A stretch of 20,136 nt of DNA, taken from positions 6,043 to 26,178 of the IMG/VR virus record IMGVR_UViG_3300030101_000243; one strand, given 5' to 3'. Shown piece after piece: positions 47 through 20,136 of the stretch. The DNA comes from a virus. A model generated the notes under the pieces. That model was not told the origin of the DNA and searched no databases. It was given only the letters and a program-made list of their open reading frames with translations. Numbering within the stretch: the stretch's first letter is position 1; each line of letters opens with the position of its first letter. A program made the translations under genes and the position numbers.

Positions 47-553
47 TCATACAAAAATATTAATGTTATGCTCATAATTTATTAAAATTTTCTTAAGTTT
101 TTTAATTGTGTCAATTAAGTTATTAAGATTAGTTTGTAAACTATGCTCAAATCGTTTAGTCTCTACATTTAACACTATTTCTTCGTTATCTACTTTTTTT
201 ATATCTAACATTTTTAATTTTAATTTAAACTCTGTAAGTGACATACCATAATCGGCAACGTCTCTATACTCTGTTAAAATTTTATTATAAGTGTCTCTAT
301 ATAAACGCCACGTGTAGTAGTACTGATGGTGCATTTCTTTATAGTGATATATGTTGGTTCTGTCTCTGTTTAAATGTTTAGCTATTGTTTTATAGTTAAT
401 TTCTTCTTCTATTAATGCAATATTAGCTATAGCCATACGCATTACAATATAAGGTTGTTTACGTGAATTGGAAGTAATTTGTTTTAAATCTGTATTGCAC
501 GCTTGCGTTGATATATTACAAATACGCTGCATTAATCTATCTTCTAAATTCAT
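47..553 (-). CDS. DnaA domain IV-like DNA-binding protein (putative replication initiator)
   Basis: This 168-residue protein has a central block (about residues 29-72) resembling the DNA-binding domain IV of DnaA. SRKQPYIVMRMAIANIAL matches the arginine-containing helix that precedes the DnaA helix-turn-helix, and NYKTIAKHLNRDRTNIYHY sits where DnaA has its 'IG..FG.RDHTTV.H' signature. There is no AAA+ ATPase domain, so it cannot be a full DnaA. The C-terminal half (about 100-168) is Lys/Glu-rich and helical, with no recognised domain. DnaA-like stand-alone domains occur in phages as origin-binding or initiator proteins; that role here is inferred. It is the last gene of a five-gene set that starts at 1694 and is separated from the preceding gene by two bases. 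An alternative is a transcriptional regulator using the same fold. Confidence 0.7.
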   Translation of the reverse strand: MNLEDRLMQRICNISTQACNTDLKQITSNSRKQPYIVMRMAIANIALIEEEINYKTIAKHLNRDRTNIYHYKEMHHQYYYTWRLYRDTYNKILTEYRDVADYGMSLTEFKLKLKMLDIKKVDNEEIVLNVETKRFEHSLQTNLNNLIDTIKKLKKILINYEHNINIFV

Positions 554-1715: not shown

Positions 1716-1747
1716 CTAATATACAACTATATAAATAAGTTATCAAA
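1716..1747 (-). promoter_or_regulatory. Candidate Bacteroidota-type promoter for the 1694-47 operon
   Basis: On the coding strand, TTTG (1744-1747) is followed after 20 bases by TATATTAG (1716-1723). This fits the Bacteroidota pattern of TTTG near -33 and TAnnTTTG near -7 with one mismatch. The same bases also read as TTGATA, 17 bases, TATATT, close to a classic sigma-70 pair. It lies in an 88-base gene-free gap, and the expected transcript start is about 15 bases from the ATG at 1694. The match is seen; activity is inferred. Confidence 0.55.
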
Positions 1748-3326: not shown

Positions 3327-3885
3327 TTAGATCAGGTGTTAAAAAGTCGCTTAATTTAATACCACCTTGTCTGTCTCTTACCTTTTCTAAATTTAGACCT
3401 GAATAAAACGCATTTTTGGAAGGTGATATGTCTTCGTTAGTGTTTGTGTTCAATTCAGGGTAACTACTATTGTTATGTCTTAAATAGTCTATTAATCGTT
3501 CTGTATAGAACTCTGCAGTATTTCTTACTTCTTCACGTAGATCGTTTGCTTCTTGTCTACTTAATGGTGTACTGTTTTCTGCAGTTTTTTGTACTATGTT
3601 ATTGTTCATTACTTTAAATCGTAAAAACGGTATGCACTCAAAGAACGCCCAATGTACTAATGAGTCTGCAATATAATCGTCTACCAATGTTTGATAAACC
3701 CCTGATAACGTACCACCTGATATTTTTGTTTGTAACGCTTCAAAAAGGTCTGTACCTAATACACGTTCAATGTGTTTTTTTTGTGCTACTTTAAGATATG
3801 GTAAGATAAATTCAATATCAACATTACCACCTATAGCAGTAGAATCTTTTAACTTGTTTTCTGATATAAATAATACGTAACTCAT
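3319..3885 (-). CDS. Head-tail connector (adaptor), DUF6712-like
   Basis: A 188-residue, mostly helical protein that begins LFISENKLKDSTAIGGNVDIE and continues LPYLKVAQKKHIERVLGTDLFEAL. This is the typical opening of Bacteroidota phage connector/adaptor proteins ('I.E..LK....I..NVD...L.P....AQ...I...LGT.L'). In the assembled head such proteins form a ring below the portal that links it to the tail. The gene lies three bases after the portal gene, which supports the call. The C-terminal third (about 140-188) is Asn/Pro-rich and probably extended. Confidence 0.72.
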   Translation of the reverse strand: MSYVLFISENKLKDSTAIGGNVDIEFILPYLKVAQKKHIERVLGTDLFEALQTKISGGTLSGVYQTLVDDYIADSLVHWAFFECIPFLRFKVMNNNIVQKTAENSTPLSRQEANDLREEVRNTAEFYTERLIDYLRHNNSSYPELNTNTNEDISPSKNAFYSGLNLEKVRDRQGGIKLSDFLTPDLNE

Positions 3886-3888
3886 AAT

Positions 3889-5877
3889 TTAACTTTTTCT
3901 ACCTTGTCTAGGCATACGTTTCGGTGCTATTGCTACTCTTTTGTCGTTCTTCTTTGCAGTAAATCCTTCATTTCGTGCTTTTGTATATCCTATTAGTTCT
4001 GCGTCTTTAATCTTTGTACTAACGTCAATACCTAGTTTTGTTTTATAAATTTGTCTTAACCAATAATGATGACATTGTGCGCCCCCTTTAAATAAAAATT
4101 TATCATATCCTGCTTTTGAACCTTTTGGTGAAAACTCTTTATTTAGTTTAAACATTCTGTCAATGTCTTCTTTTCTGTATAGTTTTTTTGCAGCTAACAT
4201 TTTTTGGCAAAAGTCTCTTTTTTTACCTGTCTTACGTTTTAAAAATTCGTCTTCAGCGTAAATATATCTTACTCTAAAGTAGTCAAAGGTTTTTTTACTA
4301 ATTCCGTCTTGTTCACTCTTAGCGTCAGGTATTGCTCTACCTGTACTTAACTCTACTTTTTCTGTAGCTATTTTATTTAGTTCGCCTTCAAAATCAAATT
4401 CTACGTGTTCACCGTCTACTACTTCTTCTTCTACTAATTGCCAGTCTTCAGGTATGTCTTCTACAGTTTCTAAAAATAAATCTAGTTCTGTTTTTTCTAC
4501 ATTCATTCTAGTTTTTGTGTCTTCGTGTTTTGCACAAGGCATATATACCTTTTCACCATTTAGTTCGTGTTCGTGAAAACCCTCACAACCGAGTTCTTTT
4601 GCTTTTATTAACGCTTCTTCTACTGTACTATAAACAGGCATACCGTCAATATCACCTACTTTAGCTAGTTTTTCGCTTTCTAAGTTTTCTTGTTCTAACC
4701 TTTCTAAACCTAGTCTTTCACGTATTTCGTCTTTTGTCATTACATTACGCATATCTTCAACGGTAAACGTAGTCATAATTGGTGAAGATTGTACTATTTG
4801 TAAGTCTGCTTTTATATCGTTTACTAATAGTATTTTTTCTAGTGTTTTTAGTATATGTTCTTGGTAAGGTTTTACAACTGTGTTTTGGTATATCTCAAAT
4901 GCTTGCATAAGTTCATCACGACCACCTAATTGTCCCTCTGTCTTAACACCTAATAACATAGGACTTGTGACTCTATGACCTGTCATTATGTTTTGCACTA
5001 ATAACTCTTGTAATGCTAAGTATTGCTTGTCTGCGTTGCTAACGTCTATAGGTGTTATTTCTGCAGCTCTGTCTTTACTATCAGAGAAAGATAAAACAAA
5101 TTTACCTGCGTTACCAGAACCCGAAAATTTCTTTTCTATACTACGTTCTATTTGTAGTCTTTCTTCTGCAGTCGGTACACCATTATTCATATTAATAAAA
5201 TAAGAACCTGAAAAACCTCTTTCAATGTTACCTAAATGATACTCACTTACTTTTTGATCTATTAACGCCCAATTACACGCTGAACTATAATCAGGTGTAT
5301 AGTACATTTCCATATTAGGACTGTACAAACCTGTGTATAGTATTTGACTAGGTGTTGTTCTGTCTAGTGGGTTAAATGCTGCTACTTCTTGTGGTTTATT
5401 TCGTCTTACGTTACTCCAGTCTGCACAGATATAATATTTGTCTATTCTACCTAATTCGTTCGGCAAACCTACTCTAAGGCGTTCTACAGGCACATGATAT
5501 ATTTCTGCTACCTGTCCTGACTTTGAATATATAACATTCAATGCAAAACCACCCTGTAGTTTAAAATCAAATGCACATTTTTTAAGAACCTCGTGTAGTG
5601 TCTCTTTACTATTAGCGTTTTTAAAGAAGTTTTCTAGCTTTGCGTTTAACTCTACACTATCTGTATCTTTTGCAGTTATATCTTGTCCTGCTATCATTTG
5701 TGCAGTAGCGTTTATAATAGCTGAATGTGTGCCTGAATTATAGTATAAATCTATTATAAATTGTGGGTACAAGTTTTTGTAGTCGTCTGTACCGTATTCA
5801 ATCCAATTTTTACCACGTGCTTCTTGTATTTGTGGTGCAGTACTGTATTCTAAATTTATATTAATTAAATTTTCCAT
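3889..5877 (-). CDS. Portal protein with a C-terminal Cys/His extension
   Basis: 662 residues. Residues about 1-400 read as a phage portal: ARGKNWIEYG near the start, HSAIINATAQMIAGQ (51-65), LQGGFALNVIY (108-117), VPVERLRVG (129-137), then TSPMLLGVKTEGQLGGRDE (304-322) and the wing/stem-like TVVKPYQEHILKTLEKIL. The portal forms the dodecameric channel at the capsid vertex for DNA packaging. Residues 400-662 are extra. A compact GCEGFHEHEL plus YMPCAKH stretch (Cys431, His435, His437, Cys448, His451) could bind metal; an acidic linker follows (about 460-510). The last domain (529-662) has KKRDFCQKM and GGAQCHHYWLRQ and ends very basic. The end recalls, but does not clearly match, the C-termini of Mu F/SPP1 gp7-type minor head proteins. 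The start forms TAATG with the upstream gene. Confidence 0.85.
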   Translation of the reverse strand: MENLININLEYSTAPQIQEARGKNWIEYGTDDYKNLYPQFIIDLYYNSGTHSAIINATAQMIAGQDITAKDTDSVELNAKLENFFKNANSKETLHEVLKKCAFDFKLQGGFALNVIYSKSGQVAEIYHVPVERLRVGLPNELGRIDKYYICADWSNVRRNKPQEVAAFNPLDRTTPSQILYTGLYSPNMEMYYTPDYSSACNWALIDQKVSEYHLGNIERGFSGSYFINMNNGVPTAEERLQIERSIEKKFSGSGNAGKFVLSFSDSKDRAAEITPIDVSNADKQYLALQELLVQNIMTGHRVTSPMLLGVKTEGQLGGRDELMQAFEIYQNTVVKPYQEHILKTLEKILLVNDIKADLQIVQSSPIMTTFTVEDMRNVMTKDEIRERLGLERLEQENLESEKLAKVGDIDGMPVYSTVEEALIKAKELGCEGFHEHELNGEKVYMPCAKHEDTKTRMNVEKTELDLFLETVEDIPEDWQLVEEEVVDGEHVEFDFEGELNKIATEKVELSTGRAIPDAKSEQDGISKKTFDYFRVRYIYAEDEFLKRKTGKKRDFCQKMLAAKKLYRKEDIDRMFKLNKEFSPKGSKAGYDKFLFKGGAQCHHYWLRQIYKTKLGIDVSTKIKDAELIGYTKARNEGFTAKKNDKRVAIAPKRMPRQGRKS

Positions 5878-6572
5878 TATAAACTAGCTAATCTGTTATT
5901 TACTTTTGTTATAAAACCTGCAGTACTAAAACTAATGTCATCATATATTTGAACTTCAAAAATAGAACCTTCTAAATCATTTGCGTCTGTTGCTCTTACA
6001 CCTATTGCGTCTATTAAAAACGTACCTGTCCTTGTATTTGTGTCAGTTTGTTCTGTACCGTTAAAAAATATTTTAATTAATCCATCGTCATTACGTGAAA
6101 CTATTAAATTAAAGTTTGTTGCGTCTTGTATTGCACCTGAATTTAAATCAAAATCTTGTGCCGTACTACCTGCTATTCTAACTGTTATTGTGTCGGCGTC
6201 TTTAATTCTAATAAAGTGACCTGTTGTAGTGTTATCTGCTAAAACAACGTCATTATTAAAAGGTGTTTCTAAATTTAATCTTACTGCTATTGTAAATTGT
6301 TCGTCTAAAGATATGTCTGACGCAGTTTGTAAACTTTCATTTGCACCGTCAAAACTTACTGCACCTGTGCTTGCAGTATATTGTGGTTTTTCAGAGTCAG
6401 TTGCCTGTAACATATCAAAGTTACCTGTTTGGTCAGTCCAATTAGAAACGTTAGATATATCTGCACCTCCTAAACTTTTAAATTTATAAAATGCTTTTAT
6501 ATTAGGGTGTGTTGCAGGGTCAAATTCTGCTGAAACAGTAGAAGTTAAATTTTGCGATAAAGTTAATTTCAT
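5877..6572 (-). CDS. LamG/concanavalin-like structural protein, putative adhesin
   Basis: 231 residues of beta-rich sequence of the LamG_3/concanavalin A-like type: NWTDQTGN (44-51), AVSFDGANESLQT (71-83, the usual 'FDG.....' strand), FTIAVRLN, LIVSRNDDGLIKIFFNGTE (the '..R...G....YvNG' strand), and closing EVQIYDD (about 206-212). This jelly-roll fold often binds glycans. In a virion it could be a capsid decoration or head-fibre lectin, or a receptor-binding protein. It lies in a tight trio with two other small structural genes (TAATG at both ends), between the capsid block and the portal. Which virion part carries it cannot be told from sequence. Confidence 0.7.
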   Translation of the reverse strand: MKLTLSQNLTSTVSAEFDPATHPNIKAFYKFKSLGGADISNVSNWTDQTGNFDMLQATDSEKPQYTASTGAVSFDGANESLQTASDISLDEQFTIAVRLNLETPFNNDVVLADNTTTGHFIRIKDADTITVRIAGSTAQDFDLNSGAIQDATNFNLIVSRNDDGLIKIFFNGTEQTDTNTRTGTFLIDAIGVRATDANDLEGSIFEVQIYDDISFSTAGFITKVNNRLASL

Positions 6573-6847: not shown

Positions 6848-7330
6848 TTAATTGATGTGTATATAATTTGTACTTGTTGTTTCTGTATATTGTGTGTATT
6901 TTACCTGCTCACTACCTACTGTTTCGCTTACTAATAGTTTGCCCTGTTCTACTAAACCTTTTACTACACCGTGTACACTACCTGTATTATTTGCTGCGTC
7001 TGTTTCGTTAATAGGTGCAGTATTTGCGTCTATTGTCGGTACTGTACCGTTAAAACTAACTTCATATACTTCGTATTTATAATATCCAAAAGGTGTTAAA
7101 TTAATAGCACCTGTAAAAACATTTTCTGTAGTGTTATGTGTAAAACTAAAATCTGTGTACCTTTCTCTAATTGTTTGACTTTGTCCGTATGCGTATTTTA
7201 CATTTCCTGATAAGTCATTTGTAAATTTTACTAAAAATCTAATTTGTGTACTTGGTACTGTTGTGTCTATTCTTTTGTCTTCTGTAGTCACATAAAAATT
7301 AGTTGTAGAACCGTAAGTTGCGTGTTGCAT
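6848..7330 (-). CDS. Beta-rich structural protein, first of the adhesion trio
   Basis: A 160-residue protein. Residues about 10-100 form an Ig-like or FN3-like beta sandwich (IRFLVKFTNDLSGN, then NLTPFGYYKYEVYEV, a typical closing-strand motif). Residues 118-160 contain GVVKGLVEQGKLLVSE and KYTQYTETTSTNYIHIN, a C-terminal pattern I associate with minor virion proteins of marine phages. It is the first gene after the terminator at 7369-7394, and its ATG lies two bases after a TCTATTATATA box, so it probably has its own promoter or a leaderless start. Role inferred: linker or base for the LamG protein. Confidence 0.6.
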   Translation of the reverse strand: MQHATYGSTTNFYVTTEDKRIDTTVPSTQIRFLVKFTNDLSGNVKYAYGQSQTIRERYTDFSFTHNTTENVFTGAINLTPFGYYKYEVYEVSFNGTVPTIDANTAPINETDAANNTGSVHGVVKGLVEQGKLLVSETVGSEQVKYTQYTETTSTNYIHIN

Positions 7331-7332
7331 AC

Positions 7333-7353
7333 TATATAATAGAAAAAGTTTGA
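7333..7353 (-). promoter_or_regulatory. TCTATTATATA box, copy 3 (short spacing)
   Basis: TCTATTATATA on the coding strand occupies 7333-7343. TCAAA (7349-7353) lies five bases upstream of it, ten bases closer than in the two other copies. The ATG of the 160-aa gene follows two bases later. The position between a terminator and a gene start suggests a promoter element. The element itself is seen; the function is inferred. Confidence 0.4.
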
Positions 7354-7368
7354 ATTTATTTTATAAGT

Positions 7369-7394
7369 AAAAAAAAAGGTGGTAAAATACCACC
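7369..7394 (-). terminator. Strong intrinsic terminator after the 197-aa structural gene
   Basis: On the coding strand a perfect 7-bp stem, GGTGGTA (7388-7394) and TACCACC (7378-7384), closes a three-base TTT loop and is followed by nine consecutive T (7369-7377). This is a textbook rho-independent terminator, about 24 bases past the stop at 7418. It separates the capsid operon from the LamG/portal operon. Confidence 0.9.
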
Positions 7395-7417
7395 CTTCTT
7401 TTATTTATGAAAACATA

Positions 7418-8011
7418 TTATGATGTTGTTACTGTTGCCGTAAACGCTGAGTTATCAAACGGTACGCTTGTATAGTCTGCTACAATACTAGCAGGGTAAC
7501 TTTCTTGTCCACTAAATGTCAAATCTGAACCTGCCATATCTCCTAATGCTGCACCTGAAACGTTTGTACCTGTATTTAATTGTAAACCGTTTTCTACTCC
7601 TAAAGCTACAATAACTCTTTTACCTGAACTATTGATTTGGTTTAACTCTACAAATATTATTAATCTGTTTTGTGATAATAGTTTTATTTCGTTTCTGTCT
7701 GTAACACTTAATTTATGTAATTTAATATTAACTGACTGGTCAAAGAATATTGTACCATTTTCTGTACTACCTGTGATAGTCTCTGTAAATGATCCTGTAC
7801 CCCTAACTAACTCGTACTTAAATAGCTCTTGTCCTGTACCACTACCTGATAAATCCAAGTCTGTGATAGTACCTGATGCTGGTTCAATACCTGCACCACC
7901 ATTTTGACCGTTTATACCTGCGTCTGCGTGTTGTACAAAGTATACTGCCTTTACACCACCTACGGTGTCCCTACAATCTAATTGTCTTCCTGTTGTTAAT
8001 TCACAAGCCAT
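7418..8011 (-). CDS. Major structural protein, tail-tube-like
   Basis: A 197-residue beta-rich protein that begins MACELTTGRQLDCRDTVGGV and continues KAVYFVQHAD. It contains YELVRGTGSFTETI and STENGTIFFDQSVNIKLHKL, then LNTGTNVSGAALGDM and TFSGQESYPAS. The 'C....LPC.D.VGGIK..Y' opening and 'RGTGS.TETI..S.ENGT' core recur in Bacteroidota phages directly after the capsid gene. Size and strand pattern would suit a major tail-tube subunit, and the gene is followed by a strong terminator, as are many highly expressed virion genes. A capsid decoration protein is the main alternative. Confidence 0.65.
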   Translation of the reverse strand: MACELTTGRQLDCRDTVGGVKAVYFVQHADAGINGQNGGAGIEPASGTITDLDLSGSGTGQELFKYELVRGTGSFTETITGSTENGTIFFDQSVNIKLHKLSVTDRNEIKLLSQNRLIIFVELNQINSSGKRVIVALGVENGLQLNTGTNVSGAALGDMAGSDLTFSGQESYPASIVADYTSVPFDNSAFTATVTTS

Positions 8012-8026
8012 ATTTATTATTTTAAG

Positions 8027-8062
8027 ACAGTTTAAGAGGGTTTTGACACCCTCTCTTACTGT
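8027..8062 (-). repeat. Intercistronic hairpin after the capsid gene
   Basis: AGAGGGT (8035-8041) pairs with ACCCTCT (8048-8054) around a six-base loop. ACAGT (8027-8031) and ACTGT (8058-8062) form an outer stem across three mismatched positions. It fills the gap between the capsid stop and the next start. No T-run follows on the coding strand, so it is more likely a transcript-stabilising, processing or partial-attenuation hairpin than a full terminator. Confidence 0.6.
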
Positions 8063-8072
8063 AAGTTAATTA

Positions 8073-8984
8073 TTAGTCTATTCTTACAATTTCGCCACCT
8101 TGTGCGTGCTGACAACCTGCAGTAAATTTAGCTACTACTCTGATGTTATCAGAACCGTCTAAGTCAGCCATATCTAACATTTTAAGTTCTGTGTGGTCAG
8201 AAACTAAGTCTGTACCAAAGAATAAATTTGACTGTTGTGCTGCTATCATTTTGTTTTCTACCATACCCGGACATACTGCGATCTTAACACCATTAAACAT
8301 AGGTACAAAATCGTCATTCATATTGAATAGTCTTTGATAACCTGAATTTGCTTGGTTCGCTAAGTAAAGTCTGTAAGAAGATACTGACATATAAATATAC
8401 AAATCTTCTTTTCTATATAATGCCGAAGGAATTGCGTTTACAAGTGCGTTTAGGTCGTCATCTATACTTGTTACAGTATAAGCTGAACCTGCACCTGCTG
8501 AATTATCTACATCTACAAGTGTGTCGCCTGCAAAAGTTCCGTCTGTTGGGTGCATAAAACCTGTAAATTCATTTGTGCCACCGTTTCCTGCCCAAATGTT
8601 AGTTTCTACATAGTCTGCAATAGTAGACGATAAGTAAGACATTACAAACGCTGCAAAGTCGTCAGACATTCCGTCATTGTGTCTACCTGCAGTCATTTGT
8701 GCAGATTGAAAATCTTGTAGTAAATCTTTCTTGCATAAATCTACGTTAATTTCTAATTGTTTTGGTGTTAATACTCTTTCAGTCAAAGTAAGTGTACCTG
8801 CGTCGTTAAAGTCGCAAGTTGCGTCTTTAATCATATTTGTTGTGCTTACTTTACTTATGTTTCTTTTGAATTTTATATTTTCTAATACTGTTAAAAACTC
8901 TAAAGATTTTGATGACTTTAATGCTGCACCTATATATTGTCCTGCGTGGTCACCTGAATAATTTGATGTTATTGAAAAACCCAT
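8073..8984 (-). CDS. Major capsid protein, HK97 fold
   Basis: A 303-residue protein preceded by a scaffold and protease gene, the classic head-assembly context. A helical N-terminal arm (about 1-40) leads to ERVLTPKQLEINVDLCKKDL (spine-like), a long helix DDFAAFVMSYLSSTIADYVE (108-127), a loop with WAGNGG (131-136), and a C-terminal beta domain. That domain contains LFFGTDLVSDHTELKMLDM followed by VVAKFTAGCQ, the usual 'NLF.GTDL..D...v..lDm....gs..vr....ft.G.q' end of Bacteroidota phage capsid proteins. Its length is normal for a capsid protein with a separate scaffold. It has a good A-rich start context and a downstream hairpin, consistent with high expression. Confidence 0.88.
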   Translation of the reverse strand: MGFSITSNYSGDHAGQYIGAALKSSKSLEFLTVLENIKFKRNISKVSTTNMIKDATCDFNDAGTLTLTERVLTPKQLEINVDLCKKDLLQDFQSAQMTAGRHNDGMSDDFAAFVMSYLSSTIADYVETNIWAGNGGTNEFTGFMHPTDGTFAGDTLVDVDNSAGAGSAYTVTSIDDDLNALVNAIPSALYRKEDLYIYMSVSSYRLYLANQANSGYQRLFNMNDDFVPMFNGVKIAVCPGMVENKMIAAQQSNLFFGTDLVSDHTELKMLDMADLDGSDNIRVVAKFTAGCQHAQGGEIVRID

Positions 8985-9002
8985 TTTATTATTATTTAGT
9001 TA

Positions 9003-9641
9003 TTATTTATTTAAGTTATAAAAAAACCTTTCTCTACTATTCATTCTAGCGTAAGGTTTTGTATTTGTTTTTGTTTCGTTGAATTTACTTACCTCAACAG
9101 GTTTTGTTGCAGGTTTTTTAGATAATTCTACGATTTGTGATTGTAATTCTTCTTTTTCAGTAGTTAGTTCACCGTTTATATCTTTCATTTCTTCAAGTTC
9201 TGCTGAAAGTCTTGACACGTCTGACCTTACTTCTTCTAAAAGTTCTTTAATTACTACACCTATTTCTTCAATAAGTGCTTTTTTGTCAAAGTTTTCGTTT
9301 TCTACTTCTTCTGACATTTCTTCTTCTTCTACTGCTTCAACTTCTTCTGTTTCTTCTGTTTCGTCTTCGTCTTCTTTTTCTACTTCTTTTTTCTCCATTG
9401 ACGCTACGATACCTTCTTTTTCTACTTTAAATTCAACACCGTCTTCTGTTTCGTAAGTTCCTACAGGAACAGGCATTGTACTTCCGTCTTCTGCTAATAT
9501 CATTACTTCTACGCCTTCTGCAAGTTCGTCTGCTTTAGAAACGACAATAGTACCGTCAATAAGTTTAGCTTGAAATTCTAGGTTTACTTCTTCTTGTTTG
9601 TCTAAACCTAATGCTGATAATATTTGTTTTTTTAAATCCAT
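9003..9641 (-). CDS. Capsid scaffolding protein
   Basis: 212 residues. The front third (about 20-80) is a small beta domain of the pattern 'AkLiDGT.v....eL.EG..V.i...DGs..PvP.GtYe.eDG'. Residues 84-116 are almost entirely Glu/Asp. Residues 121-175 form a coiled coil (EEVRSDVSRLSAELEEMKD), and the end is basic (180-212). Acidic, coiled-coil scaffolds with a basic capsid-contacting tail are typical, and the gene sits between protease and capsid. The beta front is shared with many Bacteroidota phage scaffolds. It is probably cleaved by the protease encoded at 10265-11167 during maturation. A TCTATTATATA box precedes it. Confidence 0.8.
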   Translation of the reverse strand: MDLKKQILSALGLDKQEEVNLEFQAKLIDGTIVVSKADELAEGVEVMILAEDGSTMPVPVGTYETEDGVEFKVEKEGIVASMEKKEVEKEDEDETEETEEVEAVEEEEMSEEVENENFDKKALIEEIGVVIKELLEEVRSDVSRLSAELEEMKDINGELTTEKEELQSQIVELSKKPATKPVEVSKFNETKTNTKPYARMNSRERFFYNLNK

Positions 9642-9657
9642 TTTTTAAAGTCTTTAG

Positions 9658-9692
9658 TATATAATAGAATTATTTATTTGTTGTTTGATTTT
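9658..9692 (-). promoter_or_regulatory. AAAATCAAA-N15-TCTATTATATA element upstream of scaffold
   Basis: On the coding strand AAAATCAAA (9684-9692, overlapping the stop of the upstream gene) is followed after exactly 15 bases by TCTATTATATA (9658-9668). The same two blocks at the same distance precede the protease gene. The spacer sequences differ, so this is not a simple duplication. A small palindrome, TAAAG-A-CTTTA (9646-9656), lies between the box and the ATG at 9641. It may be a promoter or regulator site for head-gene transcription. Confidence 0.5.
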
Positions 9693-10254
9693 AGTAATCA
9701 AAATCAATTTTATTTAAAGGGTTGTTTTGTTTTTTATTAAAGTTATTTATTATAGTTTCATATTGTGATACATTTACTTTAACACCTAAACTTTTTGCGT
9801 TTTTTTCTACAATAGATATAGCGTCTTCTAATTTGTCTGCTACATTTTCTGCTTTTTTATAATCAGCAATGTATTTATTATTTAATTTAAAAACTTTTTG
9901 TGCAGCTTTTTCTTGTTTATTACGTGCTGTGTCAAACTTTTTTTCAACTTTTAAATACGCTTTTTCGTCTTTTGCAAAATCTTGTTCTGCTTTTTTTATT
10001 TTTTCTTTTGAAATACTTAAATAATCTTCTGCTATGTCTAATTGTGCTGCTGCTTCATTTAATAATTGATTTACCCTGTCATAAGACGAAACTTCTGTTT
10101 TAATTTTACTGTCATCTAATTTATCTGTCAAAGTTTTTAGTTGTCCTGATAATTTATCTAAAGTTTTTATATCTTTTAAACTATATTTCTCTACCTTTTC
10201 ACCTTTTGCGTTAGATAGTATTGTGTTTAGTTTGTCTTCGTAATTTTTGTACAT
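9691..10254 (-). CDS. Lysine-rich coiled-coil protein of the head-assembly block
   Basis: A 187-residue, strongly helical protein with long heptad-like stretches (about 28-145), rich in Lys, Glu and Ala, with no hydrophobic segment. A C-terminal stretch, AKSLGVKVNVSQYETI, resembles AKELGVDIPKVNQYGNSL near the end of the protease encoded just upstream, so the two proteins may share a short binding module. The position between protease and scaffold suggests an internal head (core) protein or second scaffold component. No named family is recognised. Confidence 0.6.
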   Translation of the reverse strand: MYKNYEDKLNTILSNAKGEKVEKYSLKDIKTLDKLSGQLKTLTDKLDDSKIKTEVSSYDRVNQLLNEAAAQLDIAEDYLSISKEKIKKAEQDFAKDEKAYLKVEKKFDTARNKQEKAAQKVFKLNNKYIADYKKAENVADKLEDAISIVEKNAKSLGVKVNVSQYETIINNFNKKQNNPLNKIDFDY

Positions 10255-10264
10255 AATTTTTAAT

Positions 10265-11167
10265 TTATAATTTCATTGCATTGACGCTTTTTTTAACTAA
10301 ATTTTTTCCTGATGTTATTGCTTTTTTTAAACTATTTCCATATTGGTTTACTTTTGGAATATCTACACCTAATTCTTTAGCCATTTTTTTTGCTTTTTCA
10401 ATTTTTTCTAATTCGCTTTCAGCTTTTAATATTACAGATTTGCCAATATTTTCTGATTTTGCTCCTGCTCCATTTAATATGACAGAACCTCTTTTAAGTT
10501 CATCATAGATTTGTCCTATGTTTTTTTCAACATTATCTAATAAACCTAATTCAACTTTATTTATCTTACCTTCTTTTACTAACTCGTTGTATGCTTCTAC
10601 TATTTCTTCGTCTGTAACTGTTTTGCTCATTTTTTCCATTTTGTCTACAAAATAACCCTCTATTGATAAACCTTTTAATTCACCTGCTTTTATCTTTTCC
10701 CACAAGTCGTTATTTTCTATTTTCATTTTGACAAACCACGTACCATTTGGTAGATCGTAGCCATACATTTTAGACTTGTCTTGGTCGCCTTCTTTTATCC
10801 AACTTTCTACTGTCAATACTCCTGCTACTCTGTCTTCGTGTTGATATGTAGCTTTATGATGATTGTTGTATTTTAAGTATAATTCACTTGCTCTGCGTAC
10901 CGTGTTTTTAGAAAAAAATACGTAATACTCTGAATCTGTATTAGGGTTGTATCTAAATATCTGTTTGTTAGGTATTAGTGCAGGACTAATTAACATTCTT
11001 TTTTCTTCGTCAATCTTTGAGAATGTAAGATTATGCTTGTCTTTTCCAAAAAATACAAAATCTACTTCTATTGCAGGGCTTGTTACTAGACTTATTGCGT
11101 CTATAGATAGTTCTTCGTTATCGTCACTTATTACAAGTTCTGTGATCTTAGTAAGTTTTTTCTTCAT
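10265..11167 (-). CDS. Prohead serine protease, XkdF-like (S78-like)
   Basis: 300 residues. The N-terminal 175 match the XkdF/Peptidase_S78_2 pattern: IDAISLVTSPAIEVDFVFF (22-40), MLISPALIPNKQIFR (58-72), ATYQHEDRVAGVLTVESWI (106-124, with His110 as catalytic candidate), LPNGTWFVKMKI (139-150), and KAGELKGLSIEGYF (160-173, with Ser168 as nucleophile candidate). The enzyme would cleave scaffold and capsid precursors in the prohead. Residues 200-300 are an added Lys-rich helical tail with AKELGVDIPKVNQY, unlike the catalytic part; it may be a targeting or core segment removed on maturation. It is preceded by a TCTATTATATA box three bases from the ATG. Confidence 0.88.
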   Translation of the reverse strand: MKKKLTKITELVISDDNEELSIDAISLVTSPAIEVDFVFFGKDKHNLTFSKIDEEKRMLISPALIPNKQIFRYNPNTDSEYYVFFSKNTVRRASELYLKYNNHHKATYQHEDRVAGVLTVESWIKEGDQDKSKMYGYDLPNGTWFVKMKIENNDLWEKIKAGELKGLSIEGYFVDKMEKMSKTVTDEEIVEAYNELVKEGKINKVELGLLDNVEKNIGQIYDELKRGSVILNGAGAKSENIGKSVILKAESELEKIEKAKKMAKELGVDIPKVNQYGNSLKKAITSGKNLVKKSVNAMKL

Positions 11168-11170
11168 ATT

Positions 11171-11205
11171 TATATAATAGATTTAAATTAGTTTTATTTG
11201 ATTTT
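11171..11205 (-). promoter_or_regulatory. AAAATCAAA-N15-TCTATTATATA element upstream of protease
   Basis: On the coding strand AAAATCAAA (11197-11205, reaching into the tape-measure stop codon) is followed after exactly 15 bases by TCTATTATATA (11171-11181). The protease ATG lies three bases further. The arrangement is the same as upstream of the scaffold gene. With the -10-like TATTAT this close to the ATG, the transcript would be nearly leaderless if it is a promoter; an operator is the alternative. Confidence 0.5.
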
Positions 11206-19695: not shown

Positions 19696-20136
19696 TTTCC
19701 TATTTGTGTTGTGGGTTGTGGTATATTACAACTTTCAAAAGCCTGTTCAACTATTATTGGTAAATTAAATACCCACCCTGTTACTGAATTATCAAATCTC
19801 TCTGTAAATGGTTCTAGCGTAAAATTGTCATCAACAAAATATTGTGGTGTATCACCGTGTGTAGCTAAATAATGATTAAGACTTTGCCCATGTTTAAATG
19901 TGCTTATAATGTCTGTAGATATACTTAAACAGTCACTTAATACTTCTTGTTCATTACTTTCGTCAGGTTCTACTAAGTCCATAATAAATATTTGAAAATT
20001 AAATGTAAACTGTGATTTACTTGCAATAACGTTTACGGGGTTTATATGTAGTAGAGGGAATAAAGTGTTTTTTTCTAAATCTAATTCAAACACGTCACCT
20101 GTGCTTACTGTTTTGATTTGTAAATGATTAGTACCA
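19692..20136 (-). CDS. Conserved tail/virion protein, 5' end cut by the window
   Basis: The frame stays open to the window edge. Codons upstream of the GTG at 20093 read GTNHLQIKTVSTGD and continue smoothly into VFELDLEKNTLFPLLHINPV, so the GTG is internal and the true start lies beyond 20136. The visible 147 residues contain FNFQIFIMDLVEPD, VLSDCLSISTDIIS and a final PFTERFDNSVTGWVFNLPII, followed by SCNIP. This end resembles a minor tail protein recurrent in Bacteroidota phages ('f.PF.ERFdN.v.GW....'). It is the first visible gene of the tail operon. Exact role not known. Confidence 0.68.
   Translation of the reverse strand, partial: GTNHLQIKTVSTGDVFELDLEKNTLFPLLHINPVNVIASKSQFTFNFQIFIMDLVEPDESNEQEVLSDCLSISTDIISTFKHGQSLNHYLATHGDTPQYFVDDNFTLEPFTERFDNSVTGWVFNLPIIVEQAFESCNIPQPTTQIGK

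Follow-up and report, generated by a model that had tools for sequence, protein, structure and literature searches.

The IMG/VR phage record IMGVR_UViG_3300030101_000243 carries a recurrent two-box element that we interpret as the late promoter of a marine phage, read by a phage-encoded extracytoplasmic function (ECF)-like sigma factor together with the host RNA polymerase; from the sequence evidence presented here we put the probability of this interpretation at roughly 0.83. The stretch analyzed, hereafter the window, is 20,136 nt long (positions 6,043–26,178 of the 26,178-base record), and the host of the phage is probably a member of the Bacteroidota. An earlier note, made from the letters of the window, had drawn attention to the 11-mer TCTATTATATA (box 2 here) and proposed a protein-binding site, either a phage-specific late promoter or an operator. 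The promoter is now well supported by the confinement of the element to packaging, head and tail gene starts, its rigid boxes, a terminator before the copy at 7333 and its conserved positions in relatives; an operator is less likely.

Copies of the element in the phage record

Exact matching recovered the three TCTATTATATA copies reported for the window, all on the minus (coding) strand at 7333–7343, 9658–9668 and 11171–11181, as well as their distances to an ATG of 2, 16 and 3 bases, respectively. The pair AAAATCAAA-N15-TCTATTATATA was likewise exact at the 9658 and 11171 copies, with 0.03 such pairs expected in shuffles of the window. Two further exact copies of TCTATTATATA lie outside the window, one before the small terminase gene (record 2526–2516) and one before the gene that follows the large terminase gene (record 921–911). 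All five copies in the 26,178-base record are on the coding strand and all five are intergenic, compared with an expected count of 0.035 under an order-3 Markov model of the coding strand (Poisson P ~4e-10). The concern that the 11-mer might be equally common inside genes was not borne out, as there were no copies within genes in the phage record.

A conserved two-box layout in related phages

Relatives were gathered by a capsid search in IMG/VR, which yielded 80 related loci with 79 exact forward copies of TCTATTATATA versus 6 in reverse. The element was common to hundreds of relatives, with a strand bias of 300 versus 24, was confined to the starts of packaging, head and tail genes, and occurred at equivalent gene boundaries even where the capsid proteins were only ~50% identical. 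Relatives with the flanking genes kept either the element or a genome-wide variant of it.

Column statistics over 58 distinct sites located the upstream box as AAA(T/C)A at −18 to −14, usually preceded by C. The conserved form (box 1) was (A/C)AA(A/C)(T/C)(A/G)A at −19 to −13 from the 11-mer, i.e., with a 12-base spacer. When at least six of the seven letters of one of five forms were required at the exact spacing, box 1 lay 12 bases upstream in 233 of 236 distinct coding-strand sites among all loci fetched, compared with 0 of 20 on the opposite strand and a background rate of 3–4%. The two-block element is real, with fixed spacing and diverged spacers, but its upstream block is this box and not AAAATCAAA, which was rejected as it is present at only two of the five copies in the phage's own genome. 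The third copy had been thought to have its upstream TCAAA ten bases closer, about one helical turn. Since box 1 is fixed at 12 bases in relatives, that copy is unshifted; TCAAA is a chance match, and AAAATAA at 7356–7362, which had been overlooked, has the standard spacing. The predicted promoters in the window, and the terminator beside one of them, are as follows:

11171–11181, minus strand: box 2 (−10-like) TCTATTATATA of predicted late promoter 1, before the protease gene (exact match and relatives)
11194–11200, minus strand: box 1 (−35-like) CAAATAA of promoter 1 (fixed 12-base spacing in relatives)
9658–9668, minus strand: box 2 of predicted late promoter 2, before the scaffold-like and major capsid genes (exact match and relatives)
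9681–9687, minus strand: box 1 CAAACAA of promoter 2 (spacing and relatives)
7333–7343, minus strand: box 2 of predicted late promoter 3, before a three-gene unit leading into the portal gene (exact match and relatives)
7356–7362, minus strand: box 1 AAAATAA of promoter 3, at the standard spacing (columns of the relatives)
7369–7394, minus strand: putative intrinsic terminator (GGTGGTATTTTACCACC and a T run) directly upstream of promoter 3 (read from the sequence)

The arrangement of a terminator followed by promoter 3 recurs in many relatives, and at the 7333 copy only ~40 bases separate the terminator from the ATG.

With a GC content of ~32% in the window, repeats of an A/T-rich element might be attributed to chance, or else to linkers left by recombination between gene modules, and for the latter it can be said that at the slot before the scaffold gene the upstream DNA of relatives differs up to the box 1 region, where the copies may be crossover points. 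We consider this the least credible of the explanations examined, given the excess of observed over expected copies and the strand bias noted above, and given that the spacers diverge while the boxes stay, whereas linkers would carry their spacers along.

Concerted change of box 2

Relatives without the 11-mer had the same layout with a different box 2, and each genome repeated its own version at the same boundaries. These variants included CCCTTTATATA, TCTCTTATATA, TCTATTATACT, TATATACTTTA, TCTATTACTAA and TATATTTTATA, among others. Box 2 identity was 92% between sites within a genome versus 68% when one site was compared across genomes. For the 12-base spacer there was no concerted effect (43% within versus 47% between genomes), and none of 200 sets of mixed pseudo-genomes given the same treatment reached the observed concertedness of box 2. 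A box 2 that changes in concert beside a spacer that does not points to a trans-acting reader protein that co-evolves with its sites.

These data also bear on the possibility that the element is used at the mRNA level, signalling where translation is to begin in hosts lacking Shine-Dalgarno sequences. The element is often two bases before the ATG (100 of 233 sites), and translation in Flavobacterium uses the bases directly upstream of the start codon (PMC6847099). However, box 1 is at a fixed distance from box 2 but not from the ATG, which follows at gaps of 2 to 38 bases. Moreover, only a few gene starts in each genome carry the element, and box 2 changes in step across each genome. A role in translation is, in our opinion, very improbable.

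A phage-encoded ECF-like sigma factor

The reader of the element is probably an ECF-like sigma factor encoded by the phage itself, as judged from its sequence and predicted fold. Its gene (record 3741–4295, outside the window) is downstream of the start of the early region and encodes 184 residues with weak matches to sigma region 4 and matches to phage and ECF sigma families. Across 14 members of the family, Pfam sigma region 4 was identified in 13, albeit weakly, and region 2 in three. A profile sequence search with the sigma against solved structures gave no useful match. The top 50 Foldseek matches of its AlphaFold2 model were all sigma factors or complexes with them, ECF sigma factors first, and the model aligned end to end with ECF sigma factors (Foldseek best E 1.1e-3; VIA Z ~10 to 1or7). 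The model contains a disordered linker (residues 91–118), and the placement of the two domains relative to one another is unreliable (root-mean-square deviation 13–20). As modeled, the protein has the ECF architecture of region 2 and region 4 domains only, and its 184 residues fall within the ~160–200 expected.

A homolog of the sigma was present in 27 of 36 contigs, where the nine without it were fragments of 12–20 kb, and in all 20 long relatives compared, although most of these have swapped terminase genes. No homolog was found in cultured phages by tblastn. A scan of bacterial genomes with the sigma returned one contig (L198), with a 60% identical sigma, in a metagenome-assembled genome labelled Pseudooceanicola; this is probably a mis-binned phage contig.

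Covariation of the sigma factor with box 2

In a Mantel test of 21 genomes with capsid and portal controlled, the correlation of the whole sigma with box 2 was only suggestive (r 0.21, p 0.07). For this test box 2 was set by hand in genomes where the automatic choice, as used in the comparison of box 2 identities above, was wrong (G011 and G027) or partly so (G023). The locus set was enlarged after this result to 95 dereplicated loci, in which box 2 distance tracked sigma region 2 when region 4 and a neighbour gene were controlled for (partial r 0.235, p 0.003), and more so without the most divergent clade (partial r 0.319, p 0.0015). Region 4 added nothing (r −0.085, p 0.90). That region 2 tracks box 2 and region 4 does not fits a constant −35-like box paired with a conserved region 4, and a variable −10-like box paired with region 2.

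Within region 2, two residues correlated with single bases of box 2. Residue 82 was R or K where base 2 was C (121 loci) and N, T or H where it was A or T (43 loci), and residue 83 was S where base 3 was T (159 loci) and N where it was C (5 loci, in two lineages). Both pairings were concordant in 164 of 165 loci. The sole mismatch, L440, was rejected as an exception because its box was mis-registered, and the sequence contains TCTATTATATA. On a sigma tree built without columns 76–86, residue 82 class and base 2 each needed four changes, residue 83 and base 3 each needed two, and all independent pairs were concordant. Residues 80–83 form the loop joining helices 51–79 and 84–93 in the AlphaFold2 model, which places residues 82 and 83 at the position of the ECF "specificity loop". 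In the ECF sigma H, this region 2 loop holds a flipped base of the −10 element (PMC6411747).

We lean, if only slightly, toward a fuller account. In it, residues 82 and 83 would determine which bases occupy positions 2 and 3 of the −10-like box. Within a large marine phage family, this sigma-promoter pair would have changed specificity several times, with the four or five late promoters of each genome all changing together. Many late mRNAs would begin at the start codon or no more than 3 bases from it.

An alternative is that the boxes bind an activator or repressor that works alongside the host primary sigma, this protein being another phage regulator such as the DnaA-C-like helix-turn-helix protein encoded at window 47–553. 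This protein has a DnaA-type helix-turn-helix and is, like the sigma, found in 20 of 20 relatives, and rigid spacing with a diverged spacer would be compatible with an operator too. Distances of the DnaA-C-like protein did not track box 2, however (Mantel r 0.177, partial 0.013), whereas the sigma loop residues do track its bases; in addition, there is no host-type TAnnTTTG box near the late sites, and the ~40 bases between terminator and ATG at 7333 also count against an operator. We consider this alternative unlikely. As an observation in its own right, the DnaA-C-like protein is conserved at ~33% identity among those relatives and is a possible replication initiator or regulator.

Proposed early and late transcription

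In the program that we propose for the phage sigma, a late promoter would consist of the −35-like (A/C)AA(A/C)(T/C)(A/G)A, 12 bases, and the −10-like TCTATTATATA(nTA). The conserved region 4 would read the constant −35-like box and the region 2 loop (80–83) bases 2–3 of the −10-like box, presumably by direct contact, so that promoter and sigma specificity would have been switched together. Five late units are predicted: the two terminase genes, small and large; the conserved gene that follows the large one; the protease; the scaffold and capsid; and the three-gene unit into the portal gene. Three of the five would start in the window, with promoter 3 restarting transcription after the terminator.

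The sigma itself would be made early, from a host-type promoter. The earlier note had remarked that the element does not fit the Bacteroidota TTTG/TAnnTTTG promoter, and this holds for the late sites, none of which has the primary promoter pattern (TAnnTTTG −7 box, TTTG at −33). One copy was found instead at the start of the early region:

1716–1747, minus strand: predicted host-type promoter TTTG-N20-TATATTAG, placed where the early region begins; its transcript is expected to carry the sigma gene (sequence and equivalent site in relatives)

Five relatives had a full TTTG-N20/21-TAnnTTTG at the equivalent early site, 4–6 kb upstream of the sigma gene, and strict intergenic matches of TAnnTTTG type were found only there.

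With the first T of box 2 numbered 0, position 12 was T in 85% and position 13 was A in 89% of sites, and the nTA after box 2 was also present at 85 of the 133 sites without an ATG there. As the ATG is two bases past box 2 at 100 of 233 sites, leaders of 0–3 bases are predicted for these promoters. Leaderless mRNAs make up only 5.5% in Flavobacterium psychrophilum (PMC9723704).

Several points weigh against a late promoter read by this sigma. The sigma is itself under curated cut-offs, scoring 19.8 of 25.7 bits for Pfam region 4 and 29.4 of 42.9 for TIGR02937 (E 5.5e-7); that of one relative (L115) passes the latter with 45.5 bits. At 12–16 bases, according to where the −35 hexamer is placed, the spacer is rather short for an ECF promoter. 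Box 2 is correlated, too, with the neighbour protein encoded after the large terminase (r 0.448; partial 0.141, p 0.02). There were only about six independent switches, with one of the four base-2 switches on well-supported branches, too few for significance alone. Lastly, residue 82 was first spotted by eye, and in a later scan of all pairs it came first on raw mutual information but sixth once the average-product correction was applied.

Genes and genome context

The genes that follow the three predicted promoters in the window include the following:

10265–11167, minus strand: head maturation protease gene, first of promoter 1 (family match to Peptidase_S78_2, 1.7e-16)
9003–9641, minus strand: scaffold-like gene, first of promoter 2 (assigned by position and composition only, with no confident family match)
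8073–8984, minus strand: major capsid protein gene (PHROG 11320, a weaker match to a major head protein family, and the P12024S homolog)
6848–7330, minus strand: first gene of promoter 3, conserved in 18 of 20 relatives

Between the protease and scaffold genes is a variable cargo-gene slot (window 9691–10254), with equivalent slots in L010–L017. The 187-residue gene there was present in only three of 20 relatives, and other genes extend exactly to the box 1 region of promoter 2; promoter copies may act as crossover points here. The small and large terminase genes (record 1022–2483) were shared with only two of 20 relatives, with the genes on either side kept, indicating a terminase module that is swapped while the surrounding late promoters are retained.

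The ends of the record repeat one another (1–99 and 26080–26178, the latter window 20038–20136) over 99 bases with one mismatch, and because of this repeat the record, though classed as linear, is probably a near-complete genome of ~26.1 kb. Inside the end repeat, upstream of a conserved 96-residue gene, TCTACTACATA with six of seven letters of box 1 was found at window 20045–20055, and is possibly a weak sixth late promoter.

Comparison with known systems

Late promoters of T4 have a TATAAATA −10 element only. The sites described here are not of that type, in which TATAAATA stands alone with no −35, as the −35-like box is at fixed spacing in nearly all of them. Sigma factors of phages, such as T4 gp55 and SPO1 gp28/gp34, redirect the host RNA polymerase to middle or late genes (PMC9429907). 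The present sigma resembles these in being phage-encoded and serving, as we propose, late genes, but differs in its two-domain ECF-like form and rigid −35-like box. With bacterial ECF sigmas (E. coli sigma E, M. tuberculosis sigma L and sigma H) it shares the restriction to regions 2 and 4, a full-length fold match, the region 2 loop as a likely specificity determinant and stringent two-box promoters. Unlike them, it is a phage gene with no recognized adjacent anti-sigma, its boxes are A/T-rich and its late phage role is inferred.

No Xpf/ArpU-type family was named among the Pfam, PHROG and NCBIfam matches, and no direct comparison with PBSX Xpf or ArpU was made. We found no paper on this motif or on late promoters of Bacteroidota phages in the open-licence literature, and earlier work may exist elsewhere. 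Late sigma systems of phages are already known; what appears to be new is this family, together with its residue code and the switching of promoters in concert.

For a large family of marine phages that are mostly uncultured and have mostly unannotated genes, these findings supply a program of transcription from early to late and make late operons findable from sequence alone. The residue-base code would provide a series of naturally occurring sigma-promoter pairs that differ in specificity, presumably working with Bacteroidota RNA polymerase, and the co-evolution of a regulator in concert with all its sites becomes testable.

A similar arrangement was seen in the cultured Nonlabens phages P12024S and P12024L (Flavobacteriaceae host), which have a distant capsid homolog (25% identity). 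In P12024S, a sigma-70 region 2 protein (P12024S_33; Pfam E 1.4e-5, above the curated cut-off) is encoded directly before the terminase genes. This phage has its own late motif, apparently undescribed in its record, namely CGTTA(A/C)TA four bases before the ATG with a AAAACAAA-like box upstream, at six late genes on the coding strand; three minus-strand CGTTA(A/C)TA matches had neither the AAAACAAA-like box nor the ATG. P12024S differs in its CCGTTAATATA-like box 2, a spacer about two bases shorter, a sigma only 17% identical and a genome of 35.7 kb. Nonetheless, as a distant cultured phage with a similar arrangement, P12024S brings an experiment within reach.

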